This document shows, piece by piece, positions 1-25,328 of a stretch of 25,623 nt of DNA. The notes beneath the pieces are model-generated. The model ran no database searches. It was not told the origin of the DNA and was given only the letters and a program-made list of their open reading frames with translations. Origin of the DNA: a virus; the IMG/VR virus record IMGVR_UViG_3300035204_001168, positions 1 through 25,623 of that record; one strand, written 5' to 3'. A program made the translations under genes and the position numbers. Every line of letters starts with the position of its first letter. The first letter of the stretch is position 1.

Positions 1-675
1 TCACAACATGTACCACAACATGTTTCATTCGCACCACAACATTCATTATCATTACAGCAATCTTCACATCCACAATTATCACCGCAGCATTCTGATGTAT
101 TGCAACATGTATCACCACAACAACTTACTTCTGGTCCGTCCGGACCCACGAAGAGTCCTTCCCCACAACAAGCACCACCACAACATAATGATCCAGCAGG
201 ACAGCAATTACCATCACAACAAATTGTTCCAGCCCCACAACAATTACCATCACAACAAGTTTCGAGTGAATTGCAACACGAATTCCCGCAGCACACCGGA
301 CAACATTGACCATCGCCGCAGCATTCAAATCCGGGTGGGCAAGGAGGAACGCATAGTGGTGGAGGGCAATACAAACAAACACCACCATTACAGCACAAAT
401 CCGAACCAAAACAATCAGAATCTACCTCACATTCAGAACATGGCGGGTACTCACACACACCATCACAACAAACCTTCCCTTGTGATATGCATTGTTCATT
501 TGAAACACATTCCCCGCAAAGCGACAGTTCGCATAATGTGTTGTCTCCCATATACTCACCGGCATACGAAATGCATTGTTCTCTTGTTGTTTCGATGCAG
601 GATTTACATGTTATATTCAGGAGACAACATGCACCCAACACTAAAGGATCAACACCACAATCCGAATAGTCACAA
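1..675 (-). repeat. Cysteine-pair array (CC-x3-CC type) in partial giant protein
   Basis: Translation of this stretch gives about 26% cysteine, mostly as CC pairs spaced by 3 to 6 residues, for example CCGNSCC, CCDGNCC, CCGGACC and CCGDTCC. The DNA appears as a run of ACAACA-rich units on the plus strand. The array begins directly after the Gly-X-Y stretch and continues beyond base 1. It is coding sequence, not an intergenic repeat. Confidence 0.85.
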
Positions 676-2525
676 TAACCTGGCGGTCCCGGTTCTCCAA
701 AATTACCAATATTTCCTTCGCCGCCCGGATGACCAATTGGTCCCTGAATAAAATCAGTAGGAGAAAGTCCACGATCACAAGTAAAAGTGTTACTGTTTTT
801 AAATGATGAGAATATGTCATTCTGATAATGTCGTAATGCTATTTCGTCTTCTTCACAATCAAAACAATAACAAGGGGAACCGGCTTCAGGATAAGGAGCA
901 AATAACAATTCCTCAAAAGACACATTTGATGCTTTTTCGATATGCGCGAATTCAGGAAAGAATGTGTCTGTAGATCGTGTAACACCATTTTTGATATCAA
1001 GCAATTTGTGCTTGAATTGGGGTGTGCTGAAAACCTCCGAAACTAATTTCGAGAATATTGGATCATTTTCTGTTTCTTTGAGGATGCTCTGACCAACAGT
1101 ATAATTGTGTACTATTTTCTTAGCCTTACAGTAATTCGTTTCATCATTGTCTATTAGATCATGTACGTCTTTGATTATTTTTGGAAGGAATGAAGAAACA
1201 ACCGAATCTAAAACAGTAGGATTGTGCCATAACTCCAGAGCCAAACCAATGATACCTGATCCTTCTTGAATCGATGTAGAATCACAAGATTCGCAAGGCA
1301 CACATGCAGTTTTATTGATGATTTTGTTGAGATGAAAATCGCCAATTCCCATCAAACTACCAAAAACGAACGAATACCGTTCTTGATCAATATCGGTGAT
1401 TGTTTTCATTATGCTGGAATACGCCCCAGCAACAGACAACCTATCGAAAAACTCATCCATCGTTTCTGAATTCTTTCCCGAAATAGCATCTGTGTGTAGT
1501 TTTAAGAGATTCAATTCTAGCAAGAGCGATTCGAGTAAATCTATCACTTCGTCTGCTTGGTTTCTAGAAAGCGGAAGAATTTCATATAGAGGAGGCGTAT
1601 CCTCAACCGGGACGGGAATTGGTCCTTGATGTAAGTTGTATACTTCCGCAGTACTTCCCTCTGGAGTATCAGGTATTATCGTTACTATAACACTACCAGA
1701 ATCACCAATTGCTATTGCACCACGCACATTATCGTCTTCATATACAATACCGTCTTCGCTAATTACTTCGGATGGTGTTGCCGATTCGGCTTCACTATCA
1801 CAAATGTAATAAATCGTAGAACCGCTTGAATCAAGAGTTTCTCCACTAACCCCACAAGTGCTACCCGAACCACCATAAACACCACCAGACAAGTGACACT
1901 GTAATTCAGTTAGTGAATGACAATCGTTTAATATACAACACCAACCAGTACCCCCAGATAGTTCACCCGCCGGTGGAGTAAATGTTTCAGGATCAACAAC
2001 ATTTCCCCCCTCTGTGTAGACTGGTGATGGAACAAAATTGCCCTGCTCATCATACACAACATTTTCAATTTCTTCTTCGAGTTCTTCTATTGTGTCTGAT
2101 GTCACACCATAAGTTCCGTGGAACTGTATACCGCTACCAGCACCACCCAATCCGTTAGGCATATAGTAATCGACACCTTCAATTGTGTGTGTATGATAAC
2201 CTACTGTGTTTTCATTTTCTCTGCTGTAATCGGGTGTTGGGCTTGCGGCAATTGCTTCTTCTGGTGTGAGGAATAGGGGATAGTACCCATCTAGAGCAAG
2301 TGCGTTTGCTCCAGGCCACGGTTCCCCTTCCTCATGAGGGAGGGCAAAAAGAGAATTGAGAATATCAATTTCATTCAAACATACATCTATAGACTCATTG
2401 ATAATTTGAACGAGCGGGTTTTGAAACCCATCACCCTCGGCGATAAGGACAATCGCATGACGCTGTTCGGGTGTCAACGAATCAAAAGGTATTTCTATGG
2501 TTTTTGGGATTTCAAATTTATGCAT
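1..2525 (-). CDS. Giant cysteine-rich collagen-like virion protein (partial, 3' end outside window)
   Basis: This reading frame is open from ATG at 2525 to the window edge (841 codons, no stop reached). The stop of the upstream paralogue lies 7 bases away and provides a GGGGTGA ribosome site. The start, MHKFEIPKTIEIPFDSLTPEQ, matches the start of the neighbouring 1489-residue protein. The shared helical domain continues later, around LKLHTDAISG and RLSVAGAYSSIMKTITD, but is interrupted by an insert of about 200 residues that contains one Cys module (about 1855-1946). After the domain come seven Gly-X-Y triplets (about 680-745) and then a dense cysteine array (about 59 Cys in the last 225 residues visible). 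No enzyme motif was seen. I infer a tail-fibre or baseplate-attached structural protein from the position after the hub genes and the collagen-like stretch; the actual role is unknown. Confidence 0.85.
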   Translation of the reverse strand, partial: MHKFEIPKTIEIPFDSLTPEQRHAIVLIAEGDGFQNPLVQIINESIDVCLNEIDILNSLFALPHEEGEPWPGANALALDGYYPLFLTPEEAIAASPTPDYSRENENTVGYHTHTIEGVDYYMPNGLGGAGSGIQFHGTYGVTSDTIEELEEEIENVVYDEQGNFVPSPVYTEGGNVVDPETFTPPAGELSGGTGWCCILNDCHSLTELQCHLSGGVYGGSGSTCGVSGETLDSSGSTIYYICDSEAESATPSEVISEDGIVYEDDNVRGAIAIGDSGSVIVTIIPDTPEGSTAEVYNLHQGPIPVPVEDTPPLYEILPLSRNQADEVIDLLESLLLELNLLKLHTDAISGKNSETMDEFFDRLSVAGAYSSIMKTITDIDQERYSFVFGSLMGIGDFHLNKIINKTACVPCESCDSTSIQEGSGIIGLALELWHNPTVLDSVVSSFLPKIIKDVHDLIDNDETNYCKAKKIVHNYTVGQSILKETENDPIFSKLVSEVFSTPQFKHKLLDIKNGVTRSTDTFFPEFAHIEKASNVSFEELLFAPYPEAGSPCYCFDCEEDEIALRHYQNDIFSSFKNSNTFTCDRGLSPTDFIQGPIGHPGGEGNIGNFGEPGPPGYCDYSDCGVDPLVLGACCLLNITCKSCIETTREQCISYAGEYMGDNTLCELSLCGECVSNEQCISQGKVCCDGVCEYPPCSECEVDSDCFGSDLCCNGGVCLYCPPPLCVPPCPPGFECCGDGQCCPVCCGNSCCNSLETCCDGNCCGAGTICCDGNCCPAGSLCCGGACCGEGLFVGPDGPEVSCCGDTCCNTSECCGDNCGCEDCCNDNECCGANETCCGTCC

Positions 2526-2532
2526 AAGAATT

Positions 2533-5500
2533 TCACCCCGTAAACCCTAAACCACCGACAAAACCATAATATGAAGTTCCGCCATCCATAGTAGTAAACG
2601 AGATGATATCTATACCAGATGCTGATAATGTGGGTGCTGTGCCTCCAGGCCATTGAATAGATGATGTAAACTCGACATCACCGTGTGCCAACCCATCTTC
2701 AAATATCACAGTCATTGTACCGACTGTTCCTGATGTTGGGGCGTTAGTTAGAGCCCATATGATGGTGTTGCCGCTATCCATCCCACCAACCTTTACTTTT
2801 TGTACGTTACCGTTTTCAAAATCAAAAGTCACACTACTTGGTGTCTGACCATTATCATAGTACGTCTCAGCATAATCTTTTAGGTTTACGTTGTTGACTG
2901 TGTTATCTTGAAGATAAACAGAACCACCAGAGGTAAATCCAGAATTTAGATTTACACCACTAGATACTTCAAGCGTTCCTGTATCGTAATCATATTTCAG
3001 ATCATCACTTCCAGTTGGTGTCCCGCTTTGATTGAACAATATCTGTTTGTCTGAACCACCAACTGGTCCCGTTGGTCCAACCGGACCAACGCCTGGTTGT
3101 GTTGGTATCCATTTTTCAGCAGCAGAATTGTATTGTAGGATATCCTGATCTTCTGGTGCATTTTCTGATACATCAACCAACTCATGAAGATATAGATCAT
3201 CGACCGATATCCGAATAATGTTGTTAGCCTCATTGGTGTCTAGTTTGATATTAGAACCAGACACAAAACTAACAACCAACCCTTCCCCAATCAAACCATC
3301 CTTCTGAATGGAAGCAGTGAGTTCCCCCTGAATGATTGTTGTTATGGCATCAAAATCTTCGTACCCGGCATAGCCTAATTTAGAATCACTCTTCATTTCT
3401 GCTTTGGAGATAAGCGACAGAGATCCCTGAGCAGTGGATGTGTCCCGAGTATCTGTCTTCTTCTTTTTCGATGCAGCGAAGTTTACTAATTGAAACTGGA
3501 TAGGCTGAGAAAGTATAGTTGGTGAAGACGAACCAACTAAAGGTTTTGACGTAGAGATGCTTGAATCTATTCCAGTAGTACCATTTCGGAATTCTAGTTC
3601 TACTTCATATTTTTTCAATATGCCATTTTCATAAATGGGCTTGTATGTTTTGTTTGCATCAACTAAATTTTGTAGTGATTTGTTTGGGTATTTCTTTAGT
3701 AATGCAGAATATTTTCTATTGTTTGCCGTAAAGACAACAGTAGATGATTGCTTAGTTTCTGGTGTGGGGGCAAAATGACTAGGGGGAATATAGTCATCAC
3801 AACTATCCTCCCACATCCCACCAAGAACAGCACAACTCTCTTGGGTGATTTCTTCATTACATCCACTCTCTAACCAACAAACACCGAGGCTTCTAGTAGC
3901 ACCCATTGTACAGGTATTGCAAACATCTTCGTAACATTCGCTACCGTCCAACATAGGTCGTGAAGCACACGATTCAAACCCACTACCAATACATCCAAAA
4001 CGACAACCATGATGGCACTGATAATATCCATCAAACGATCCGGTATCAAGACCCACATACCTATCAACACAACTAATGTTCTCTCTTGGTACTGGTTTGC
4101 ATTTATCCTCGAATTCCACCAATTGACCATCGTTATCACCATCGGGCTTGGCTGCGCCGGGTCTAAGAGCATCTGGTGTCTCTTGATCGCACCACACTTT
4201 ACCGAAACCACATTCTTCACAATTATCACTGTCTTTACAACACCAAGAACAAGGACCTTCTTCCCTTAGATTTAAACCATCTTCATATTGACCCCAGTCA
4301 CCCGTATCTGACAGCAGAGCATATCGTACTGGCATATTCGGGTCCACTCTACATTCACACGGATCTCCTTCTGTACCACTCCATTCCTCACAACGGTAAT
4401 CTACACTTTTATGTGTCTCCGCACTAAGAGGTAAAAACAACGGGCAGTATGTTCTGCATGCCGATTCACCAATGGGCAATCTATCATCATATATTGCAAA
4501 GTCTGTATCATCACTATGTTCGCAACCACAAGGGCAACCATGATTATCAGAACAAACACCACCAACACAATCCTCATTAACAACGGAAAATGCTCTTGTG
4601 ATTGGTTGCCAGTCATTCCATTCTAACCATGCGTCATAATCATTATGAGGGCAACAGCCAGTTTCCGACCAAACACAAGTGACTGTGTCTGAATTGGGGT
4701 TAGTTGCACAACAGCACTCACCAAGTGTTTCGTCTTTACATTCTCCGTTACAACATATTCCTTCCTCACAGCACTCGACTTCACCCTGATCTGTTATGCA
4801 TTCTGCTTCGTTACAATTACACACTGTACAGTATTTGTTGCCATCATCATCAGGACAGCAAATTTCATCGGCCCCACAACATTCCCCTTCACAAAAATCA
4901 GTGGTGCCGGTCGGACAGCAATAGTGGACAATTCCATTATACGCCATCTCGCATGATTCACCTTCATCACAGCAACACCCACCAATTGACCAACAATCTT
5001 GATTGTCATTATCATTGCCACAAGGTTCTAGATTGTTACTATTGCATTTACAATTACAGGAACCATCATAGTATTGGGTGTCTCTCGCACAATATGTGGT
5101 TTCTACACCAGAAAAATAATCGTAATAAACATCTTCGGTAGCACTATAGCAGATGCAGTGTGTGTTTTCATTTCCGTCATTTTGCCAGAATTCCGTGCAT
5201 ACCTCACACGAGGCAGGACAACAAGAACCAGCAACACAAGTTCCATCACAGCAAGTGTCACCGCAACATTCTCCACCACAACAATAGATTGAGCCTCCCG
5301 AATCTAAACAACAACTTTCTTCGGGGAGACAACAATGGAACGGACCTTCTAACTCACACGGGACAGTACCAGCCGGACATGTGCATTGTTCATCTTCTGG
5401 AACACATTCATCAATACAACATCGTAACCCATCACCACAGCACACTCCGTTACATTGTTTCTCTGGTTCACAACACACATTCTCACCAACCGAAACTTCA

Positions 5501-7002
5501 AAGCAAGTTTCTCCGTCTGGGCAACACACGCAACTCCCATCTTGACAAGTTTTACCAGACATCCCCGCCCCGCAGCATTCATCATTACAACAATTCCCAT
5601 CGAGACAACACCCGTCACCACCGCAACATGATGTTCCTGATGGACAGCACTCTCCCTGACAATCTGGGCATCCGCCATCAGGACAAGGATCCTTACAATA
5701 CCCACCACAGCAAACTTTTCCTTCCTCACAACAAGTATTGCCACAAACAGTTGTTCCTGTTGGGCATTGCGGGCAAGGCGGGCAGGTTCCATCCGAACAG
5801 GGATTTATGCACTGTCCACTACAACATATCATTCCAATTGCACAATCATTTCCAGTAACACAACCACTCGGCATACAGTCGATGATGGCACAAGATGAAT
5901 TTTCTCCAAAGAAAACACCACCGTAATGTGAACATTGAAAATCAGTTGCAGAAACACAATAACCACAAACACAACATGCCCCCGGTTCAGTGTCACCTTG
6001 CCAACACGGACTCTCCTCGCCTTGATTGTTTGTTTGCCCGCAATTACAATCACCAACAGGACCAGGTATTCCTGCCGAACCAGTAAGCCCCTTTGCGCCG
6101 GGAGCGCCGACAGGTCCCTCGGGTCCTATTGAAATCAACTGATCTTCAATCAAACAAGGTCCAGTAACTTCTAAATTGAACTGAGGAAAGAAATCATTAG
6201 TGGTAGTATCTGAACTTGGATTCCGAATTTCGTTGATTGCTTGTTTTAGTTGAGGGGACGCAAACACAGATTCCATTGCAGAACCAAATATCGGATCACT
6301 ATCAAGTGTTTCGATTATTTTTGTTCCATACGAATATCTTTCGATTACCCTTCTTGCTTTACAAAAATTCTTTTCATCGGTATCAATTAGCGATTTGAGT
6401 TTGTCTACGATATTAGGTAACAAACAACTCAATATGCTTGGGATTGTAACTGGGAATTTTTGAACAACCCCAGCAAGACCATTCAGTCCCGACGAGTTTG
6501 TGTTTGCTTCGCAATAATTAGAAGACGATTCGCAAAAGGTTAAATGCTTTATGTTACCGATGATGTTATCACCAAGAACAGAAAGGCTACTAAAAATTTC
6601 CGAGTATTGTTCTTTGTCTAATCCAGTGATACTTTTCATCACCCTAGTATACAAACCTGCAATTGATAGACGCTGGATCAAATCGGAAGTATATTCACTT
6701 TCCACCCCAGACAACTTATCGGTATGTAATTTTAGAGCATCCAGCCAATATGTGATTGTTGTCAACCAGTAATCTAATTCGATTATTTGTTGTTCTGATA
6801 TGTGGGTTTGCTCGAATGGGTGTATGTCCAAAGACATAATCTTCGAGTGTTCATCAGAAACGATTGACTTCGCTTTTGCTATATTTTCTGCTTGGGGATT
6901 TACAAACCCATCGCCGCTCATTACCATATAGATAGCCTCACGTTGCTCAGACGTAAGCATATCGAACGGAATCTCGATGTTAGATACAGAAAAGTTTGCC
7001 AT
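2533..7002 (-). CDS. Giant cysteine-rich collagen-like virion protein (1489 aa)
   Basis: I place the start at ATG 7002 (MANFSVSN) because it aligns with the paralogue and has GGATTGATA before it; TTG at 7008 would add two residues. Counting from TTG 7008, the order is: helical N-terminal domain (1-285) shared with the next gene, eight Gly-X-Y triplets (295-319), a cysteine-rich region (321 to about 1069, about 132 Cys), a Lys-rich linker, then a C-terminal part of phage-fibre type with DILQYNSAAEKW and GGSDKQILFN motifs and a second short GPVGPTGPVGG run. These last motifs are common in phage tail fibre and appendage proteins. It follows the gp5 spike and the 267-residue protein in one operon, which suggests a baseplate-attached fibre or adhesin. 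No catalytic motif is visible. Many plus-strand ORFs here are shadows created by the biased composition. Confidence 0.85.
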   Translation of the reverse strand: MANFSVSNIEIPFDMLTSEQREAIYMVMSGDGFVNPQAENIAKAKSIVSDEHSKIMSLDIHPFEQTHISEQQIIELDYWLTTITYWLDALKLHTDKLSGVESEYTSDLIQRLSIAGLYTRVMKSITGLDKEQYSEIFSSLSVLGDNIIGNIKHLTFCESSSNYCEANTNSSGLNGLAGVVQKFPVTIPSILSCLLPNIVDKLKSLIDTDEKNFCKARRVIERYSYGTKIIETLDSDPIFGSAMESVFASPQLKQAINEIRNPSSDTTTNDFFPQFNLEVTGPCLIEDQLISIGPEGPVGAPGAKGLTGSAGIPGPVGDCNCGQTNNQGEESPCWQGDTEPGACCVCGYCVSATDFQCSHYGGVFFGENSSCAIIDCMPSGCVTGNDCAIGMICCSGQCINPCSDGTCPPCPQCPTGTTVCGNTCCEEGKVCCGGYCKDPCPDGGCPDCQGECCPSGTSCCGGDGCCLDGNCCNDECCGAGMSGKTCQDGSCVCCPDGETCFEVSVGENVCCEPEKQCNGVCCGDGLRCCIDECVPEDEQCTCPAGTVPCELEGPFHCCLPEESCCLDSGGSIYCCGGECCGDTCCDGTCVAGSCCPASCEVCTEFWQNDGNENTHCICYSATEDVYYDYFSGVETTYCARDTQYYDGSCNCKCNSNNLEPCGNDNDNQDCWSIGGCCCDEGESCEMAYNGIVHYCCPTGTTDFCEGECCGADEICCPDDDGNKYCTVCNCNEAECITDQGEVECCEEGICCNGECKDETLGECCCATNPNSDTVTCVWSETGCCPHNDYDAWLEWNDWQPITRAFSVVNEDCVGGVCSDNHGCPCGCEHSDDTDFAIYDDRLPIGESACRTYCPLFLPLSAETHKSVDYRCEEWSGTEGDPCECRVDPNMPVRYALLSDTGDWGQYEDGLNLREEGPCSWCCKDSDNCEECGFGKVWCDQETPDALRPGAAKPDGDNDGQLVEFEDKCKPVPRENISCVDRYVGLDTGSFDGYYQCHHGCRFGCIGSGFESCASRPMLDGSECYEDVCNTCTMGATRSLGVCWLESGCNEEITQESCAVLGGMWEDSCDDYIPPSHFAPTPETKQSSTVVFTANNRKYSALLKKYPNKSLQNLVDANKTYKPIYENGILKKYEVELEFRNGTTGIDSSISTSKPLVGSSSPTILSQPIQFQLVNFAASKKKKTDTRDTSTAQGSLSLISKAEMKSDSKLGYAGYEDFDAITTIIQGELTASIQKDGLIGEGLVVSFVSGSNIKLDTNEANNIIRISVDDLYLHELVDVSENAPEDQDILQYNSAAEKWIPTQPGVGPVGPTGPVGGSDKQILFNQSGTPTGSDDLKYDYDTGTLEVSSGVNLNSGFTSGGSVYLQDNTVNNVNLKDYAETYYDNGQTPSSVTFDFENGNVQKVKVGGMDSGNTIIWALTNAPTSGTVGTMTVIFEDGLAHGDVEFTSSIQWPGGTAPTLSASGIDIISFTTMDGGTSYYGFVGGLGFTG
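3797..6048 (-). repeat. Cysteine-rich multi-domain array, about 132 Cys in 750 residues
   Basis: The array is built from CC-pair units such as CCGGYC, CCGGDGCC and CCGDTCC in the first half and more widely spaced Cys in the second half. It is bracketed by two modules of the pattern G-x-C-(C/W), Cys, Cys, GG, Cys (about 5872-5981 and 3797-3889). The spacing resembles small disulfide-knotted domains, granulin-like in spirit, but I cannot assign a family. Confidence 0.75.
6049..6126 (-). repeat. Collagen-like Gly-X-Y stretch (8 triplets)
   Basis: Translation reads GPE GPV GAP GAK GLT GSA GIP GPV, directly between the N-terminal domain and the first CNC of the cysteine array. Short collagen-like stretches are known from phage fibres, where they trimerise. 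The paralogue carries a similar seven-triplet stretch at about 680-745. Confidence 0.8.
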
Positions 7003-7018
7003 TATCAATCCAGTATTA

Positions 7019-7822
7019 TTAGATTATATCACCTATATCTATGCTGGGCAGTTCGATGCTACCCACAAGGCAATCGAGACCGGGGATGTCGGGCATCAGT
7101 CCATCAACATCAGGAAGCATTCCACCAACATCAGGAATCATTCCACCAAGTTCTCCGCCGATGTCGCCCAACGAGACATTCATCAAATCCCCAACCATAC
7201 CATCAATCATCCCACCAACATCAGGTATTGTGGGGATCGCAGGTAATTTGAACTGACACAGATCAGCCAATGGGTTGTCGATATTTAACGAACCCAATAC
7301 ATCATTTGCAAAATTCTTTGCTGCGGCCTCTACTTCTGCCAGCGATACTTCCGGTATCTTTGGCATTTTAATTAGACCGCTAAATTCGGGTATACCGGAA
7401 AACATCACTTCTGGATCTAGTTTCTTTGCTAGATCGGGAATCCCTGATGCAGCAATAATAGAATCAATATCAGGAACGCTTGGTAACGAACCAAGAGATG
7501 CCAGCCCATCTATATCTTTGAATAAATTTTCATCGCACAACGGATTCCCAGAAAGCAATCCACCTATACCGCCTAGATCAGGAATTAGTCCTTCGAGAGC
7601 ATCACCAGCACAACCCGCAATATCTGGCATTATCCCACCAAAATCAACATCTGGTAAAAAGCCTCCAAGATCAGGAAGCCCGATATCAGGAATCATCCCA
7701 CCAATCGCACCTTCAACGGCACTTCCAATGTTAGAAGGAGATATGCTGTCGATAGCATCATTGACGGTATTTTTAACATCATCATATGCTGGAATTCTTG
7801 GAATATTATCTTCGAGTGCCAT
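7019..7822 (-). CDS. Repetitive IPD(I/V)GG-rich protein of unknown function
   Basis: 267 residues. The start ATG at 7822 overlaps the gp5 stop in TAATG. The protein is dominated by imperfect repeats of the kind GGMIPDIG, GGFLPDVD, GGIMPDIA, GLIPDLGG, GGMIPDVGG and GLMPDIPG, clustered at both ends, with a helix-like centre (LAEVEAAAKNFANDVLGSL). It is acidic and hydrophobic, with very few Cys and no recognisable enzyme motif. In T4 the spike gp5 is capped by a PAAR-type tip protein, and this gene sits directly after gp5. It shows no obvious PAAR signature or metal-binding His cluster, so a tip or spike-associated role is only a guess from position. It could equally connect the giant fibres to the hub. 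Confidence 0.75.
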   Translation of the reverse strand: MALEDNIPRIPAYDDVKNTVNDAIDSISPSNIGSAVEGAIGGMIPDIGLPDLGGFLPDVDFGGIMPDIAGCAGDALEGLIPDLGGIGGLLSGNPLCDENLFKDIDGLASLGSLPSVPDIDSIIAASGIPDLAKKLDPEVMFSGIPEFSGLIKMPKIPEVSLAEVEAAAKNFANDVLGSLNIDNPLADLCQFKLPAIPTIPDVGGMIDGMVGDLMNVSLGDIGGELGGMIPDVGGMLPDVDGLMPDIPGLDCLVGSIELPSIDIGDII

Positions 7823-9108
7823 TATTGACTATAGTATCCGGGATGGTTTAGGTGTATATCTGGTCCGGCATTGTAATATTGGTTTTTACCTGATTGTACT
7901 TGAATTTGACCATCAACCCTTACGTTGTAGTCTCCGCTAACATAAGCATCATAGTTACCATTAACGTGGGTGTTCATGTTTCCATCAGCAAGTTCAACAT
8001 TGACATCCCCTTCTCCGAGTTTGGCATTGACATTTCCCTTCTTCACATCCAAATTGATATTGGCATTTTCTCCAACGTGGATGTCGAAATGACAATCACC
8101 CTTTGGTTCTCCCCCACCCTCTTCCTTCTTTTGCTTGTCTTTATTCACAATGATCTTGCAGCCCTTGTCCATCGTAACATTAGTCCACCCATCAATATGA
8201 ACACACTCATTTTTTAAAACCACTGTATAGTCATTACGGACAACCTTTACTACCTTGTCTCCGTTCGGATGAATTTCTTCAAATGTACCAGATCTATGAT
8301 AACGGTGAAGACGCTCACGACCTGGTGTATCATCAACTTCTATTGTGTGCCCCGACTCGCTTTCATAAACATGGTTGTGTGGGTATGTTGCCTTGTATGC
8401 TGTTTTTGGTTCTGTCCACTTTCCACCAGCCGATTTCTTTGCTGTACATTTTTTGTCTTTTTTGATACTGCAACGAACTGGTTCACCACTACAATCAGAT
8501 GTTGGTACGTTCATGTCGAGCAACCCAGGCGAACTCCCTGCTAAAGGTCTACGCTTAATTTCAACTATGGTCTTGTCAATCTCTTCATTTCTGGCAAGAC
8601 GATTTGTATCAGATTCGTCTATAACAAAATCTTTAGGATATGACTTTCCCTTATCAGAATTTACTAACACAGCACCAAGACCATCATCAGGATACTTCTG
8701 AACTTTATAGCCTTTTGCCAACATATTACTTACTGGATCTTGTTCTAATTGACTATCGGTTCTTGGATCATTGAAGCCCGTTTCATTATCTGCTTCTTCC
8801 TCTGGAATTCCCCCAATTGAACCCATCATTATTGGTTCTTGTGCATTTTCTCCATCTCGGAAAAACCCCATCACCCATGAACCGGGAACCAATCCAGTTG
8901 GGCTGTGCCCCATTCCGCTGATAGCAGCACTGGTAATTGGTTGAATTGGATATGCCCAGGGCAAATCCTCCGTCTTAATCAAACTCTTATCGTCTGAATG
9001 AAACCCCAACACTCGAACACGACACCTACCGAGCATCAGTGGATCGTCAACATCTTCCACTACACCTTGCCACCAAACGAAATTATCTTTACCTATAAAG
9101 TTTTGCAT
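7822..9108 (-). CDS. 5: gp5-like baseplate central spike, without lysozyme domain
   Basis: 428 residues. Residues 1 to about 110 match the T4 gp5 N-terminal OB domain (VVEDVDDPLMLGRCRVRVLG, LPWAYPIQPITSAAISG, and a GxVPGSWVMGFFRDG stretch). About residue 240 onward matches the spike stem start (YPHNHVYESESGHTIEVDDT, GRERLHRYHRSGTFEEIHP). The C-terminus holds short beta-helix repeats (VNVELADGNMNTHVNGNYDA, then VSGDYNVRVDG). The protein forms the trimeric membrane-puncturing needle on the gp27 hub. T4 gp5 (575 aa) has a lysozyme domain between these parts; here only a linker of about 130 residues with no recognisable lysozyme residues remains. The start lies 2 bases after the gp27 stop. A lysozyme-less gp5 is, from memory, usual in cyanophages. 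Confidence 0.93.
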   Translation of the reverse strand: MQNFIGKDNFVWWQGVVEDVDDPLMLGRCRVRVLGFHSDDKSLIKTEDLPWAYPIQPITSAAISGMGHSPTGLVPGSWVMGFFRDGENAQEPIMMGSIGGIPEEEADNETGFNDPRTDSQLEQDPVSNMLAKGYKVQKYPDDGLGAVLVNSDKGKSYPKDFVIDESDTNRLARNEEIDKTIVEIKRRPLAGSSPGLLDMNVPTSDCSGEPVRCSIKKDKKCTAKKSAGGKWTEPKTAYKATYPHNHVYESESGHTIEVDDTPGRERLHRYHRSGTFEEIHPNGDKVVKVVRNDYTVVLKNECVHIDGWTNVTMDKGCKIIVNKDKQKKEEGGGEPKGDCHFDIHVGENANINLDVKKGNVNAKLGEGDVNVELADGNMNTHVNGNYDAYVSGDYNVRVDGQIQVQSGKNQYYNAGPDIHLNHPGYYSQ

Positions 9109-9110
9109 TG

Positions 9111-10463
9111 TTATTTACCTAATTCCTTCATTGTGTTTGACTCTGGATATGACTCTTGAACAGAATCCTTGGCAAGTTCCATATCCATTTGATATCCACC
9201 ATCTTGCTGGAAGAAATGACGAACAGAAGTTACGAGATACTTGCCACTAATGTACTTGTCAGTATTAGATTCGTCCCCCGCTTCTCCCGGTTCTAGTGGT
9301 TCAAATCTCAAATGCACAACATCCCCACACATCCTCCGACTATCACCAGCCCCGTTAGTATATAGTCGCATCGATTCAATTTGCTTCATTTGAGATTTTC
9401 TTTTACTGAACCACTTTTCATATTCGTCGTTGTCTTCGACGGTTTCGCCGCCGTGTAGTTTGTTCTTGCGGTTTAAGAATTTGTGTTTGGGCTTGAAATC
9501 ATAAACCGTGTTTGATTCAGGACTAAACTTATCAATACCTTTGATGATGGGATATTCCTTCTCTACATGTTTGATCCCATCCCAACTATCTTTCAAGTTA
9601 AAATCTGTCACCTCATACTTTTTTCTAACAATGTCATGTGTTAGTACTTTAGAGGCATACATCCCCGTTTCAATTTCTTCGAGTCTGTTTCCCGCATCAG
9701 CAAAACGAATAGATTCTAGATTTCTATGTTCATACCCAACATCTCTCTGCCCCCGAACGCTAGATGGTTTTGACAAATCACGATATTTTCTGGGATGCCA
9801 CATATAGGATTGTTTGGGGATGGGAACATCAACCAATTTATCAAGTGTAGTGAAATGAAAACCTTCCCTGTCTTCATAAAATACAAAATTACAAGCATCT
9901 GTGTTGTCTTCTGCAACTGCCCTTGCAGTCAACCAGTTAATTGCTGTAAATGGTGACCAGTTTGGAATGACGTATTTCTTCTTGACGTTTGTGGTTTTTA
10001 CATCGATGCTAAGTTCTTTACCAGAGACATCTTTGATATTGGAGTCGTATATCTCTGTGACAATATCACTTATCGTTCCATAGTAAGATTTGCTGATCTT
10101 TGTATGGGAATCTTTGAACATTTCGGGAGATACGCAAGACAGAACCATAACTTGAGATCTGCCCGCCGTCGAAACATGCTTAGATCTAATTCCATACACA
10201 TCAAACTCAAAAGTAACATCATCCGCCCCAGCCAAAGAGAAAACAATTTCTAGTTTTTCCTGTTGTCCTATTATTGGTAGATGTCTTGCCCAGTTATGAA
10301 CATCCAAGAAACTCAATTCACAAGACATAGTGTTTGAAAATATGTTTTCAAAAATACTACACGAAACGAACTTGTATATCAAAGAAACCTTACCGCCATT
10401 CGGAGAAGTGATAATAAGGTCTTTCAGTAGGTAATCTCTTGTGCCCTTGTGTGCGTCAACCAT
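9111..10463 (-). CDS. 27: gp27-like baseplate hub protein
   Basis: 450 residues, against 391 in T4. The start ATG at 10463 overlaps the gp53 stop (TAATG). The beginning (YLLKDLIITSPNGGKVSLIY, FENIFSNTMSCELSFLD, LPIIGQEKLEIVF-like segment) fits the tube-like first domain of gp27/gpD hub proteins. The middle (FKDSHTKISKSYYGTISDIV, WSPFTAINWLTARAVAED) is the most typical segment of the family, and the C-terminus (GKYLVTSVRHFF) closes the last domain. gp27 forms the trimer that joins the gp5 spike to the tail tube, which agrees with gp5 being the next gene. Confidence 0.9.
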   Translation of the reverse strand: MVDAHKGTRDYLLKDLIITSPNGGKVSLIYKFVSCSIFENIFSNTMSCELSFLDVHNWARHLPIIGQQEKLEIVFSLAGADDVTFEFDVYGIRSKHVSTAGRSQVMVLSCVSPEMFKDSHTKISKSYYGTISDIVTEIYDSNIKDVSGKELSIDVKTTNVKKKYVIPNWSPFTAINWLTARAVAEDNTDACNFVFYEDREGFHFTTLDKLVDVPIPKQSYMWHPRKYRDLSKPSSVRGQRDVGYEHRNLESIRFADAGNRLEEIETGMYASKVLTHDIVRKKYEVTDFNLKDSWDGIKHVEKEYPIIKGIDKFSPESNTVYDFKPKHKFLNRKNKLHGGETVEDNDEYEKWFSKRKSQMKQIESMRLYTNGAGDSRRMCGDVVHLRFEPLEPGEAGDESNTDKYISGKYLVTSVRHFFQQDGGYQMDMELAKDSVQESYPESNTMKELGK

Positions 10464-11308
10464 TACAGATTAATCATCCTTTTCAATTCAGCGTCAATAT
10501 TCGGAATCAGTTCTTCTTTGAGTATTTTGATTTCTTGCTTGCTGGTGTTGAGATTTTCTTCGTACTCACGATTTGTTACTGTGGTGTGTGTTGAAAGATT
10601 TCCATCCTCTGATATGAGGTACGAATGTAAAATCGTATTACCAAAAGTGGCTGCTGTAATATCGTATGGAGATGCTCCGGTTTGCCCCACCAATACTTGT
10701 TCACCAGTACCACCCACTGGTGGAGTTCCATATGGGTTTATCTTCTTACCATCTAAATTTTCAAAGTGGTGTAAACTTTCTTTGTGAATATCCACTATTC
10801 GACTAATTGTTCCTGTGGTGGTATTCTCATACTGGATAATGTCATCAACACTAAAGGAGCCAACCGTGTCTCTCAATACCAATTTCCTATAAGTAGGATC
10901 CCAACTTTCAACAAACCCACGAACACTTCTATCTGATACATTGTACACTTCCGTGTCTTTAGTAAACCCTGTTCCCCCAGATATATTGTTGATGTAGTAT
11001 GCTTTTTCTGGATATTTCTTATCGAGAAAATTCTCAAGAGATCTGCTACCTAAACACCAATCGAAATATGGATCGATTATTTGATTTGTTAGTAACACCA
11101 CCCAATGTAATTTTGCATTGTTGTAAAACTTATGCGCCACCATTTCTGGTGTTTCTCCGTCTTGTACGGCATAGTTTTCAAAGAAGTTGGAATTGTCGAT
11201 AATCTCTTTGCGTATTGCTACTCGTCTAAGGATGTCTGTTGCGGTTTTGATCGATCCGTCTTTGTTTATATCGTACCGAATCAGTGGAAACTTACTAAAA
11301 AATGTCAT
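10463..11308 (-). CDS. 53: gp53-like baseplate wedge protein
   Basis: 281 residues with start ATG 11308 (MTFFSKFPLIRYDI), which overlaps the stop of the previous gene in TAATG and resembles the T4 start MLFTFF. An in-frame ATG at 11329 would add 7 residues but lies inside the upstream gene. Residues about 15-100 carry the gp53 core (DILRRVAIRKEIIDNSNFFE, GETPEMVAHKFYNNAKLHW, LLTNQIIDPYFDW). T4 gp53 is 196 aa; the extra C-terminal part here (VTNREYEENLNTSKQEIKIL) resembles extended gp53 of marine T4-like phages, from memory. gp53 joins neighbouring wedges around the hub. Confidence 0.9.
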   Translation of the reverse strand: MTFFSKFPLIRYDINKDGSIKTATDILRRVAIRKEIIDNSNFFENYAVQDGETPEMVAHKFYNNAKLHWVVLLTNQIIDPYFDWCLGSRSLENFLDKKYPEKAYYINNISGGTGFTKDTEVYNVSDRSVRGFVESWDPTYRKLVLRDTVGSFSVDDIIQYENTTTGTISRIVDIHKESLHHFENLDGKKINPYGTPPVGGTGEQVLVGQTGASPYDITAATFGNTILHSYLISEDGNLSTHTTVTNREYEENLNTSKQEIKILKEELIPNIDAELKRMINL

Positions 11309-12258
11309 TATCGCTCTCCATCCATCCACTTGTAATCTTGTCTTGCCAGCAATGCCAATTCTCTGAAATCCATTGATAACTTAACACTTGTGGGGGCATT
11401 AGTTCCTTCAAACGCACTCCATATACCGCCTCCTGCATAATCGACTTTAATGGATGTCATACAGCAACGTGCTATCTTACCAATATATTGATTTTCTTCT
11501 CCACCAGACAAGAAGAATATTTGATATTCGGAGGGATACTCAAACAGAGCATGATCACCCTTATAGGCGCTCGGAGCCGAACTGTATTTTAGAAACTGTA
11601 TGATTTCTTTTAGATTGTCCGAATCTTTTTGGTTTCGTGGAGTAAACTCCCAAGAGAAACTGAAAGTCCTCTGTTCGGGCTCCTGAAACATTGTTTCTTT
11701 TCGGGGGTTCACCACTCGTTTCATTTTATGAGCAATTAATTTGTCTGCATTTTCAAGAAACAACTTACCAGCCATACCGGCAACCACCTGGCCAGCCTGT
11801 TGTGTCGCCGAAGCAAAGTTACCAGTTACCATATTGCCCAGAGCAGATCTTTGAAACGACACGGTTTCCCAAGTCCATCCGTCCGACATTGATATTTGAT
11901 GAGGAAACGGAAGAACCACATTATCTTTAATTCCGCCCGAAGATTTTGCATAAGTGCTTTCATCGACCGCTATTTCTGTCATTGTTTTTACATCATTACC
12001 TTCTTCATCTTTTCCCACACCTCGTTCAAATACCTGAACCTGCTCGTTCCTCACATCCCCCCGAGGTGATCCAGTCCGTACCCCTGCCATATTTTTTGAT
12101 AATTTTTGTACTTCGGAAGAAACCGCCGAAGACATATCTTCCCCACCGCTCTTTGATGAGTCACCTAACGGCGCAGTTTCATCCTGATATACCCGCAAAA
12201 AGAAGACATGCTGATGTTCTGAGTTTGATGCAATATCAGATGGAAAATGTAGAGACAT
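11308..12258 (-). CDS. 48: gp48/gp54-type baseplate tail-tube cap protein
   Basis: 316 residues. ATG 12258 has an AAGGAG ribosome site at 12264-12269. The C-terminal half holds the tube-fold signature seen in T4 gp48: FSFSWEFTPRNQKDSDNLKE, IIQFLKYSSAPSAY, then SIKVDYAGGGIWSAFEGTNA and VKLSMDFRELALLAR. The N-terminal 120 residues are polar and poorly conserved, with LPFPHQISMSDGWTWE as an order-giving motif. gp48 sits on the hub and starts tube assembly. gp54 shares the fold; I prefer gp48 because of the pattern around the TPR and FRELALL motifs, though the call is between these two. It is the first gene of the hub operon and is divergent from gp4. Confidence 0.82.
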   Translation of the reverse strand: MSLHFPSDIASNSEHQHVFFLRVYQDETAPLGDSSKSGGEDMSSAVSSEVQKLSKNMAGVRTGSPRGDVRNEQVQVFERGVGKDEEGNDVKTMTEIAVDESTYAKSSGGIKDNVVLPFPHQISMSDGWTWETVSFQRSALGNMVTGNFASATQQAGQVVAGMAGKLFLENADKLIAHKMKRVVNPRKETMFQEPEQRTFSFSWEFTPRNQKDSDNLKEIIQFLKYSSAPSAYKGDHALFEYPSEYQIFFLSGGEENQYIGKIARCCMTSIKVDYAGGGIWSAFEGTNAPTSVKLSMDFRELALLARQDYKWMDGER

Positions 12259-14951: not shown

Positions 14952-17882
14952 ATGGAACCAAACGAAAAACAACTCAAAGACATCAATGCTAAACTAAAGG
15001 ATCAAAACAAGATTCTTAGTGATAAGGTTGGTGATCCACTCAAAGATCAAAGTGGTATTGTCAAAGATACAAAGACGGCAGTGGATAGAGTTGAATCCTC
15101 GGTGAAAAATGTAGAAGCGAGTGATATTGAAAGGGCCAATAAATTCAACGATTTGGCAGACGATCTAACTAAAAAGTTTTCATCGTTCAATGCTGATCAA
15201 ATTTCAAATCTTACTAACTTTGGTGCTATAGTAGAAACTGCTACTGCCCGAACAGAAAAAATACAACAAGAATCCCTTACCGGGATATCATCAACTCTCA
15301 CCGAGTCGTTTGCAACATCTCTAAGTTTCGTTGATAGACTAGCCTTTCGCATTCATGCTAAAGCAGATCAAAACATTCGGAAAATGAACGAGGCTGCCGC
15401 CGAATTTGATGATATGCAAACGAATGTTGGTAATTTCATGCAAACCAGAATGCTTGAGTTGTCCAATCAACTCCTTACCGCAGATCATAAACAAGCGATC
15501 AACATTAAAAATGAAATGTTAGCCCTACGAAAAAGGTCTGGTGTCCTTCACGGTCATGAACGAGATCGTATGGAGGCGATGCACAGTGCAATGGCAGACG
15601 GTATGGAGGAGATGACCAATAGTACTTCTATATTTAAACAAGCGATTGTTGACACGCTACCAACAATGGATAGTTTGGCGGAAAAGATGCTCGGTGGGGG
15701 AATTCTTGGTAAATTCGCTGGAAACTTAATCCGAGCAAGAAAAGCCAAGAAACAACAACAAGCAGCCACAGATATTGGTATTGAATCAGCAATGCAAAAA
15801 GATTTTGTTGAAGATGGTGTTGCCAAAGCAAAGGGGGCTGATGCTATAATGGGCGGTGATGGTGAACTTTCCGAGGAAGAAGAGGAGACCGTCCGAAATG
15901 AACAATTAGAAATTCTTAGAGAAATTTCGGAACAGGGATTGTCTCTCATAGAAGGCAATAACGACATAGAAGAAGCGATAGTTGATGGAAATAAGAACGA
16001 GGAGTCTAGACATAAGGGTGATAAACTAGACAAGAAAGAAAAACGAAGAGAACGTCTACGAAGAGAAAAATCACGACATGGGGATTTGCTAAAGGGTGGT
16101 GGTAAGGGCATCACCAAAAAGAAGAGTGGTATGTTAGGGAAGATATGGGGTCTTCTTAAAGGCAGTTTCTCTAAACTTCTCCTTGGGGTTGGCAGTCTTG
16201 TGACTTCTATGGGTGGTCTTGCCTTGAAAATGGGCGGGGGAATGCTTTCATTGGGTGGGAAAGTAGGTAAACTTGGTCTAAAAATGGGAAGCGGATTGCT
16301 CGCTCTTGGTGGAAAACTTGCACCAATGCTATTGAAAATAGCGGGACCTGTGGCTCTCATGGCTGGTGCTGGTATTTTGGGATTTAAAGCAGGTAATTGG
16401 TTACACGATAATCTTGTTGGACCTTGGCTTGAGGACTACTACGACGAGCAAGATAAGAGAAAATGGGATGCCAATAATGCAGTTATAAAAACCACTACGC
16501 AACAAGCAAAGGTGAGAGACGAAGAAACTGGTGAACTGCTCCCTCTCTACCGAGTATGGGACCCCAAATTACAAAAGGAACTAGGAAAACAGATTGCAAC
16601 AGAAAAAGAAATTATGGAAGCAGCAAAGAAGACTGGACATGAAGGTGATTTCAGTCAACTAATGGTGCCAGACTCGGAGGGCGAGACAGCGGTTGGAAAA
16701 GCAATGGCAACCAAAACAGCGACAGGAGCGCAAGCGTATAGTGCGTGGGGCGGAGGACTCACCGAAGACATGAGTGCGGGCGAGTTAGAGAAGGTGGTGA
16801 GTGGAGAAACGGCTAGAGATGAACTAAGTAACTTGTCTAGTGGTGGGGGAAGATTGCATGGCAAGGGAAAAGAAGGATTTGAAGGACAGAGGGAGGCGAA
16901 GAGGAAACAGCAAATTCTCCATACGGCTGATCAATTACAGCAAGCAGAGAAAGAACTCGTCAATTATATGAGCAAACCTTACGACACTGAAGAAGAGGCC
17001 GAAGTGGCGTCTCGGAAAGTAAAAGAACTACTGATAAACACTGGTAAGGTATTTGAAGTTTTTCGTGGTCATGGTAAGAGGAAAAGCCTGGGCGGGGTGC
17101 CGATTCTAAAGACGAGTGATTATCATAAAATGAAAAAAGCATTTCCTATGATGTATGATTATTCTCGGGGAGAATATAGGCCTGCCATGAAAAAAGTTGA
17201 TTATGATTGGGAAGACCCACAAAGCGATGCAGAAAAGTCTTTCACAGGTGCAAAAGATAATCAATTCCTTCTTATGATGGATCACCTTTGGGACGAAAAA
17301 CAAATAGTAGAATTGCTGGGAGAATATGACAATGCCCAATCCGGGAGCATCGCAGCGAATTGGCGGGGCACCTCATGGGAAAGGTTTGGGGGCGGTGAGG
17401 CTTTTATGGGAGAACGCTGGTCAGACCCAGAACTCCCGGGCGAGGTCAGGTTCGCAAAGGGAGGTTTGGTCCGACGACCAACTCGCGCCCTAATAGGGGA
17501 AAACAACAAACCCGAAGTTGTAATTCCACTAAGCAAATCTCATGAGGTAATGGCTAAAACGATAGTAAAGACCGCTTCGCTCCAACCAACCAATCAAAGT
17601 GGTGGTATATTGGGTAACGTCCATCGTCTTCTTGGAATGGAACAATCTACAATAACAAAGCCCGACCACATCGAGAACCACCTAGTCAATTTACAAAACC
17701 AAAACCAACAACTCAAAGAGAAAACAACACTAACCCAAAACACACCAGAACAACTGAACAATACAAACATTTCTAGTGTAAATCAGAGCAACACCACAAT
17801 GTCATTGCCACCATCGCCTCATTACAACGAGTCAACACTACAGAGCCTACGCGAAAAACGAATGCGTTCGACTACCATCTAA
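14952..17882 (+). CDS. Tail tape measure protein
   Basis: 976 residues; ATG follows the preceding TAA immediately, with GGATGAGATAA as a weak ribosome site. Residues 1 to about 240 are long charged helices (KQLKDINAKLKDQNKILSDK). Residues about 320-385 are a Glu/Lys-rich segment. Residues about 394-490 form a Gly-rich hydrophobic stretch with internal repeats (LKMGGGMLSLGGKVGKLGLK, then LKMGSGLLALGGKL). Residues about 834-866 carry the tape-measure C-terminal signature FAKGGLVRRPTRALIGENNK, PEVVIPLSKS. Size (T4 gp29 is 590), position after the chaperone-like ORF, and this signature support the role: it sets tube length and is injected with DNA. The last 100 residues are rich in Asn/Gln. A terminator follows the stop directly. 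Confidence 0.88.
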   Translation: MEPNEKQLKDINAKLKDQNKILSDKVGDPLKDQSGIVKDTKTAVDRVESSVKNVEASDIERANKFNDLADDLTKKFSSFNADQISNLTNFGAIVETATARTEKIQQESLTGISSTLTESFATSLSFVDRLAFRIHAKADQNIRKMNEAAAEFDDMQTNVGNFMQTRMLELSNQLLTADHKQAINIKNEMLALRKRSGVLHGHERDRMEAMHSAMADGMEEMTNSTSIFKQAIVDTLPTMDSLAEKMLGGGILGKFAGNLIRARKAKKQQQAATDIGIESAMQKDFVEDGVAKAKGADAIMGGDGELSEEEEETVRNEQLEILREISEQGLSLIEGNNDIEEAIVDGNKNEESRHKGDKLDKKEKRRERLRREKSRHGDLLKGGGKGITKKKSGMLGKIWGLLKGSFSKLLLGVGSLVTSMGGLALKMGGGMLSLGGKVGKLGLKMGSGLLALGGKLAPMLLKIAGPVALMAGAGILGFKAGNWLHDNLVGPWLEDYYDEQDKRKWDANNAVIKTTTQQAKVRDEETGELLPLYRVWDPKLQKELGKQIATEKEIMEAAKKTGHEGDFSQLMVPDSEGETAVGKAMATKTATGAQAYSAWGGGLTEDMSAGELEKVVSGETARDELSNLSSGGGRLHGKGKEGFEGQREAKRKQQILHTADQLQQAEKELVNYMSKPYDTEEEAEVASRKVKELLINTGKVFEVFRGHGKRKSLGGVPILKTSDYHKMKKAFPMMYDYSRGEYRPAMKKVDYDWEDPQSDAEKSFTGAKDNQFLLMMDHLWDEKQIVELLGEYDNAQSGSIAANWRGTSWERFGGGEAFMGERWSDPELPGEVRFAKGGLVRRPTRALIGENNKPEVVIPLSKSHEVMAKTIVKTASLQPTNQSGGILGNVHRLLGMEQSTITKPDHIENHLVNLQNQNQQLKEKTTLTQNTPEQLNNTNISSVNQSNTTMSLPPSPHYNESTLQSLREKRMRSTTI

Positions 17883-21740: not shown

Positions 21741-22430
21741 TCATTTCTTCATTTTCTGTTGAAAGATTTTTTGTGTTTCTTTCTTGAGTGCGTCCCCTTT
21801 AAATCCAGCCTTTTTTGCTTCGCGGGTTGCCTCCTCAAGTAATTTCTTCTTTTTCTTACAACTAGAGCAACCACCGGGTTCTTTCGATTGCGGTTTCATG
21901 TTGTATTTTTTTTCTATTACCTTTTTTGCTTCTTCTACAGCCGACACTGTATCATATCCTTCGCTTTTCTTTTTGTCAACTTCCTGTTGAAGTTCTTTTC
22001 GTCTTTCCTCACACTTAGGGCAACCCTTTTCTTCTTGAGTTGGTTTGACGATATACGGATCTACCTCCCCAATCAACAATTCAATCTGAACTTTTCTTTC
22101 GTCTGGATCATCGTCGGACTCTGATGTGGTGTAATCACTAAACCCAGGCATATGTCGTGGACATGCAAGATACGGATGGTCCAGTTTGGTGTATTCATCA
22201 TTCTCACCATTGAGGAACACAGAAGGTTTGTCACCACAACCACACTCACCACATATAAACTTACCCATTTTTACAGAACTCGGTCTGAGACCCGGACACA
22301 CCTTTACAGTTTCACCATCACCAAAGCAACTCAAAAGTCTGATATCTTTAGTAGTAACGTCTGTTCTCTTCCCGCTTATACCTTTTGACCATTTAGCCTT
22401 CAGGTAGTTTCCAATCATACTTAGATTCAT
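21741..22430 (-). CDS. CxxC-repeat protein of unknown function
   Basis: 229 residues; ATG 22430 overlaps the exonuclease stop in ATGA. Ten Cys: C35, C45, C60/C63/C65 (CGECGC), C90 (CPRH), C137/C140 and C188/C191. Residues 136-172 and 187-222 are two copies of one unit: G-C-x-x-C followed by a Lys/Glu-rich helix with a Gly about 16-18 residues on (GCPKCEERRKELQQE and GCSSCKKKKKLLEEA). The first 100 residues look like a compact zinc-binding domain (SCFGDG, KVCPGLRP, YLACPRHMPG). I do not recognise the family. Co-translation with the exonuclease suggests a linked role in DNA metabolism, but a structural role is possible. Confidence 0.72.
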   Translation of the reverse strand: MNLSMIGNYLKAKWSKGISGKRTDVTTKDIRLLSCFGDGETVKVCPGLRPSSVKMGKFICGECGCGDKPSVFLNGENDEYTKLDHPYLACPRHMPGFSDYTTSESDDDPDERKVQIELLIGEVDPYIVKPTQEEKGCPKCEERRKELQQEVDKKKSEGYDTVSAVEEAKKVIEKKYNMKPQSKEPGGCSSCKKKKKLLEEATREAKKAGFKGDALKKETQKIFQQKMKK

Positions 22431-25255: not shown

Positions 25256-25328
25256 CGCCCTCGCTTGGAATCGAACCAAGGTATGTCAGTTTAGAAGACT
25301 GATGCGTTATCCACTACGCTACGAGGGC
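25256..25328 (-). tRNA. tRNA-Arg (anticodon UCU)
   Basis: The acceptor stem GCCCTCG pairs with CGAGGGC. The D arm is GCGT...ACGC, the anticodon arm TCAGT-CTTCTAA-ACTGA gives anticodon TCT, and the T arm is CTTGG-TTCGATT-CCAAG. G is the discriminator base and the CCA end is not encoded. It reads AGA codons, which suits an AT-leaning phage with many AGA arginines. Confidence 0.95.

Follow-up and report, generated by a model that had tools for sequence, protein, structure and literature searches.

Giant proteins with cysteine arrays in the baseplate operon of T4-type phages, probable tail appendages

A 25.6-kb virus record (IMG/VR IMGVR_UViG_3300035204_001168; the whole stretch of 25,623 nucleotides is called the window) comes from the tail-gene region of an uncultivated myovirus of the T4 superfamily and holds two adjacent minus-strand genes, P1 and P2, which encode giant proteins with long cysteine arrays. 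Our overall reading, which we consider probable, is that both are virion appendages of the tail-fiber kind, placed at the baseplate as trimers with a disulfide-stapled shaft. In phage fibers, the usual building blocks are beta or coiled-coil trimers that are poor in cysteine. A fiber with more than 100 cysteines per chain raises the question of how and where a virus assembled in the reducing cytoplasm would form so many disulfides correctly. Tail appendages are a known kind of protein, and the cysteine-array shaft is new as far as these tools show.

Results

P1 and P2 lie inside a tail and baseplate operon

The minus-strand genes of the window run in the order tube cap, gp53 wedge, gp27-like hub, gp5-like spike, a 267-aa gene, P1, and P2. 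The context genes were assigned by family matches: the tube cap (11308-12258, PF11091, 3.1e-10; phrog_230), the gp53 wedge (10463-11329, PF11246, 6.6e-11; phrog_232), the gp27-like baseplate hub (9111-10463, phrog_350, 2.1e-84), and the gp5-like baseplate spike/OB protein of 428 aa (7822-9108, PF06714, 6.3e-28; phrog_430, 3.2e-94), all on the minus strand, together with a tape measure on the plus strand (14952-17882). A position behind hub and spike genes in a T4-type setting, as proposed in an earlier note made from the sequence alone, was thus confirmed. For the gp5-like protein, matches covered the gp5 OB domain and, in part, hub/lysozyme PHROGs. Pfam reported no lysozyme domain, and the spike seems to lack lysozyme. 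The sole gene between gp5 and P1 (7019-7822, minus strand, 267 aa) is rich in short MIPDVGG/PDxP motifs and matched no Pfam or PHROG family. A gene of about 180-270 aa stands directly behind gp5 in most contigs of the family described below and is absent from two of them, L010 and L039.

P2 is cut by the window edge. Its remaining 737 residues, up to the stop codon, were found on a second record, IMGVR_UViG_3300035204_000991 (L007, positions 1-2211), which overlaps the first 150 bp of the window at 95% identity. Beyond the P2 stop, L007 encodes a glycine-rich tail protein (phrog_863, 9e-24), a PAAR protein, a membrane protein, gp25, and gp6, the last two named by sequence and order against Pelagibacter phage Mosig rather than by family search. 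Taken together, the two records give a baseplate operon of gp53, hub, gp5, small gene, P1, P2, glycine-rich tail protein, PAAR, membrane protein, gp25, and gp6, so that P1 and P2 are flanked by gp5 on one side and PAAR/gp25/gp6 on the other, as genes of the tail-fiber kind would be. Near the overlap (window 1-160, L007 1-330), the number of cysteine repeat units differs, the window being without units present in L007; the cause could be variation in copy number or a collapsed assembly. In the overlapping contig, the major capsid protein shares 58% identity with its counterparts in Methylophilales phage Melnitz, Prochlorococcus phage MED4-213, and Pelagibacter phage HTVC008M, which places marine T4-type phages as the closest relatives in culture.

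Domain layout of the two proteins

P1 is the complete gene of the pair (2533-7002, minus strand), with an ATG at 7002 and a listed TTG start upstream at 7008; it encodes 1489 aa with 137 cysteines. The N-terminal domain (residues 1-290, 6133-7002), common to all family members and predicted to be all-helical, is followed by a collagen-like Gly-X-Y stretch read from the sequence (residues 295-319, GPEGPVGAPGAKGLTGSAGIPGPVG, 6046-6120), which the relatives have likewise. The cysteine array comes next (residues 320-1075, 3778-6045) and has 131 cysteines and 30 CC pairs in 756 aa. It is followed by a neck (residues 1076-1300, IQFQLVNF ... VSFVSGSNIKLDTNEANNIIRISVDDLYLHELVDVS, 3103-3777), a second short Gly-X-Y stretch (residues 1306-1318, GVGPVGPTGPVGG, 3049-3087, also read from the sequence), and the C-terminal tip (residues 1319-1489, 2536-3048).

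P2 (1-2525, minus strand) is visible for 841 aa with 74 cysteines. Its N-terminal domain is interrupted by an insert of ~260 residues (residues 51-309, 1599-2375) with 6 cysteines, which the P2 ortholog Q2 has as well, whereas P1 and Q1 lack it, as do the other clades. The second part of the domain (residues 310-590, 756-1598, aligned in A1, A3, and A7) leads into a Gly-X-Y stretch, read from the sequence and aligned (residues 595-617, GPIGHPGGEGNIGNFGEPGPPG, 675-743), and then into the visible part of the array (residues 618-841, 3-674), with 59 cysteines in 224 residues. The earlier note had described an adjacent paralogous pair sharing an N-terminal domain, a Gly-X-Y stretch, and a cysteine-rich region, with counts of 132 in 750 and 59 in 225 residues; the pair is as described (N-terminal domains 36% identical, E 7e-43), and our counts differ from these only slightly. 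The layout of P1, P2, and their relatives is generally an N-terminal domain of ~290 residues, ~25 residues of Gly-X-Y, the cysteine array, the neck (FQLVNF ... SFVSGSNIKLDTNEANNIIRISVDDLYL), and the tip. The neck core is identical in P1 and P2, while the rest of the proteins is ~39% identical.

Long His/Asn-rich open frames also lie opposite the cysteine arrays on the plus strand (2-751 and 5160-5858). We rejected them as genes and regard them as a by-product of Cys/Gly codons read backwards.

The cysteine-rich giants form a family

A gp5 profile scan of IMG/VR yielded 79 loci for a family survey. Wherever a contig's gp5 shares at least 57% identity with that of the window and the contig extends past gp5 and the small gene, a gene for a cysteine-rich giant was found there; at more distant gp5 loci, many of them on short contigs, no comparable frame was found. 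A profile of the N-terminal domain detected the protein in 12 of the 13 clade contigs, and the 13th begins inside P2 and holds only its end. The family proteins have about 1,500 to 2,400 residues, with one or two genes per phage. Both genes are complete in IMGVR_UViG_3300008954_000045, where Q1 (1472 aa, 135 cysteines) is the ortholog of P1 at 66% identity and Q2 has 1602 aa and 144 cysteines. The two proteins first noticed are therefore not the only ones, and in one subclade the pair gives way to a single gene, that of L039, which is the longest member (2425 aa, 269 cysteines). There the giant is followed by a protein with a right-handed beta-helix (L039 10281-11441; PF13229, 1.1e-06), which may stand in for P2 as a tail protein of the depolymerase type. 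In the subclade of L039 and L040, a protein of 460 aa whose start resembles a P-loop (GGAGSGKG) was observed just upstream of gp5 (L039 198-1580; L040 5196-6578); in L040 it sits between hub and gp5.

When P1, P2, and the L039 and L048 proteins were compared by tblastn with 50,697 phage records, isolate phages included, no homolog was detected, nor was one found in isolate phages for part of the P2 insert. Two profile scans of bacterial and archaeal genome contigs gave no confirmed homolog. Pfam, NCBIfam, and PDB contained no matching family; PHROG families matched the tip and, in L039, the Gly-X-Y stretch. Within the data covered by these comparisons, the family counts as new. Cysteine-rich tail spikes as such are not entirely unprecedented (PMC9723712).

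The gene is also easy to miss in metagenomes. Eleven of the 13 contigs stop inside it, indicating that metagenome assemblies tend to lose it. Of the 26 contig ends of these 13 records, 11 fall inside the gene, whose share of the sequence is 15% (binomial p about 0.001, subject to the contigs having been selected for containing this neighborhood).

Cysteines are the feature under extreme selection in the array

Cysteine accounts for 17-26% of array residues, roughly every sixth position. By comparison, among 249 frames of at least 300 aa around gp5 relatives (loci L046-L121), the median cysteine content was 0.3%, and only six frames exceeded 5%, all of them family members (11-16%). In the P1 array, which is strongly acidic (137 D+E vs 28 K+R), CC pairs number 30, vs 11 CxxC and about 10 CxC, and the commonest spacings include CC-x5-CC-x3-CC. 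A 36-bp tandem repeat in P2 (163-258, minus strand, 2.7 copies) encodes one 12-residue CC-x5-CC-x3 unit per copy, so that duplication of units is a way in which the array can lengthen.

Conservation was assessed between the two phages with both genes. Of the aligned array cysteines, 129 of 130 are kept between P1 and Q1, where the other array residues of P1 are 52% identical, and all 59 in the visible part are kept between P2 and Q2, which makes 188 of 189. Among the kept cysteines, 81 show a synonymous TGT/TGC change (58 in P1/Q1, 23 in P2/Q2). As the control, 31 other proteins of the same two phages, at 77% overall identity, kept 89 of 105 cysteines. In the first part of the array, aligned over 10 genes, there are 38 invariant cysteine columns vs 12 other invariant residues. 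After cysteine, the best kept residues of P1 are tryptophan (11 of 13), glycine, histidine, and proline. The array dN (0.34-0.40) is far below dS (1.8 or saturated). A translation artifact was rejected, because dN is far below dS and the cysteine codons switch between TGT and TGC without loss. Cysteine is thus the feature under extreme selection in the array. Such near-absolute retention looks like the pattern of disulfide frameworks and by itself would be compatible with metal binding too.

Predicted structure and the role of the cysteines

Residues 320-592 of P1 were modeled with AlphaFold from five sequences. As had been proposed as a check, the array structure was predicted, and it came out as short beta-hairpins arranged in a row (mean pLDDT 71, pTM 0.39); the model informs on local shape, which is plausible, rather than on overall shape. 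A Foldseek search against PDB gave no significant match (best E 0.21); its weak look-alikes were mostly disulfide-rich extracellular proteins (uromodulin, LRP2, follistatin, TNF receptors), and such cysteine-rich hits may follow composition. Giant-virus proteins made up most of the BFVD hits, none of them a strong fold match; one reached E 9e-04 but had a low TM-score. Granulins and mini-granulins resemble the array in their CC pairs and hairpin row, and the common unit here is CC-x5-CC-x3. The granulin 12-Cys framework (C-x5-6-C-x5-CC-x8-CC-x6-CC-x5-CC-x4-C-x5-6-C) occurred in none of the 13 family sequences and no Pfam hit was obtained, so a granulin identity was rejected.

The array could itself be the adhesin, with multivalent disulfide-tied modules binding host glycans or particles and the tip in a secondary role; this would keep both the virion location and the disulfides of our main reading. 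Among the clades, arrays range widely in length, from 756 to about 1,400 aa, the 12-residue unit is duplicated in tandem, and the breaks of many contigs inside the gene may mean strain variation. However, closely related phages hardly differ in the cysteine framework, and little about binding can be read from the weak structural look-alikes. We regard an adhesive array as unlikely.

More improbable still is a metal-binding surface, in which a metallothionein-like polymer, virion-borne or intracellular, would use thiolates to hold Zn, Cu, or Fe for metal capture, redox protection, or host attraction. The cysteine content and acidity given above would suit it, and it would work in the cytoplasm without oxidation. 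However, CC pairs exceed CxxC and CxC, the predicted structure is a beta-hairpin row, and aromatic residues are present, tryptophan being kept at 11 of 13 positions. Arrays of hundreds of residues are atypical of metallothioneins, which are short and have few aromatics; each array here is hundreds of residues long and contains W, Y, and F. The first reading of the sequence had left disulfides and a metal surface side by side. That the cysteines matter is borne out by selection, and, from spacing, composition, and the predicted hairpins, we infer that they likely form disulfides rather than a metal surface.

Tip homology and comparison with known tail fibers

The ~100 C-terminal residues of P1 match tail fiber families (phrog_7760, 2.8e-07; phrog_9017, 6.8e-07; phrog_24774, 3.2e-09). 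The Q1 tip matches phrog_7760 (3e-05), the P2 tip weakly matches the virion protein family phrog_19200 (E 0.0034), and the C-terminal parts of L039 and L048 gave no match. With these four PHROG families, only the tip is shared. The Gly-X-Y part of L039 matches PHROG tail fiber and collagen-like minor tail families. The neck, present in P1, Q1, P2, Q2, L039, and L048, is kept wherever visible, and the tip is replaced in L039; a kept neck with an exchanged tip would be as expected of host-contact ends, where this pattern is usual. The tip and the setting make a tail appendage a well-supported assignment for P1 and P2. We consider it very unlikely that they are instead large proteins that are secreted or act at the time of lysis (as matrix, decoy, or enzyme) and whose genes happen to be placed in the late baseplate operon: giant size and the non-structural genes in the gp5-gp25 interval of Pelagibacter phage Mosig would fit it, but the tail-fiber tip, the Gly-X-Y stretch, and PAAR with gp25/gp6 directly downstream point to a virion part, the N-terminal domain is kept in the whole clade, no signal peptide was visible by eye, and the search for a non-structural enzyme, by which the appendage idea could have failed, yielded no matching enzyme family.

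The N-terminal domain was modeled as helical with low confidence (pLDDT 46) and has no known relative; a PDB sequence profile search gave only a marginal hit, poxvirus A49 (E 0.027), which was taken as chance.

Collagen-like prophage tail fibers EPclA and EPclB of E. coli O157:H7 have an N-terminal domain, Gly-X-Y repeats, and a C-terminal trimer domain, and form trimers (PMC3368898). P1, P2, and their relatives share with them an N-terminal domain and Gly-X-Y repeats, although the latter span only about 25 residues; no Pfam fiber domain was matched here, and the EPcl domains are listed there without a cysteine array. As for the T4 long and short tail fibers, no Pfam, NCBIfam, or PHROG homology to gp34-gp37 or gp12 was found in P1, P2, L039, or L048 beyond the tip and Gly-X-Y.

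How the appendage may be built and matured

We infer that P1 and P2 are present in the virion and trimeric. In the arrangement we favor, the helical N-terminal domain would mount the fiber on the baseplate, an anchoring role suggested by gene position. The Gly-X-Y stretch and the tip would bring three chains together, the array, with numerous disulfides stapling its small beta-hairpins, would serve as an elongated shaft or stack, and contact with the host would fall to a trimeric end made of neck and C-terminal tip.

T4-type virions form in the cytoplasm, so most disulfides would need to form late. Speculatively, the chains would stay reduced in the cytoplasm and oxidize after lysis, which would make the fiber rigid and protease-resistant. 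A fuller version, a redox-matured appendage whose 130 to 270 cysteines per chain stay reduced and flexible in the cytoplasm and become a rigid ladder only after lysis, through outside oxygen and with no protease or enzyme, is put forward tentatively, the chances being somewhat against it. No Erv/Alr oxidase or thioredoxin was found in the family fragments, although the Erv/Alr negative is worth little because its control gave no signal.

Disulfides are known in particles of ssRNA phages whose coats are made in the cytoplasm (Qbeta, PP7, and AP205; PMC6513524), which shows that assembly in the cytoplasm and disulfides in the particle can go together. Those capsids have few inter-subunit bonds, whereas one fiber chain here has more than 100 cysteines. 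In the literature on cysteine-rich or disulfide-bonded phage fibers, we found nothing describing this architecture. The nearest statement concerns two viruses linked by assignment to methane-cycling archaea: their tail spikes rank among their most cysteine-rich proteins, and disulfides are proposed for virus proteins in general (PMC9723712). These are different viruses from anoxic habitats, and we found no such array or architecture described for them.

Other features of the window

Two further features were observed outside the operon. A 229-aa protein (21741-22430) has 10 cysteines, several as CxxC pairs and all kept in contig G004, and looks like a zinc-binding protein. A tRNA-Arg (tct) lies at 25256-25328, and a tRNA-Arg(tct) was found in Pelagibacter phage Mosig too.
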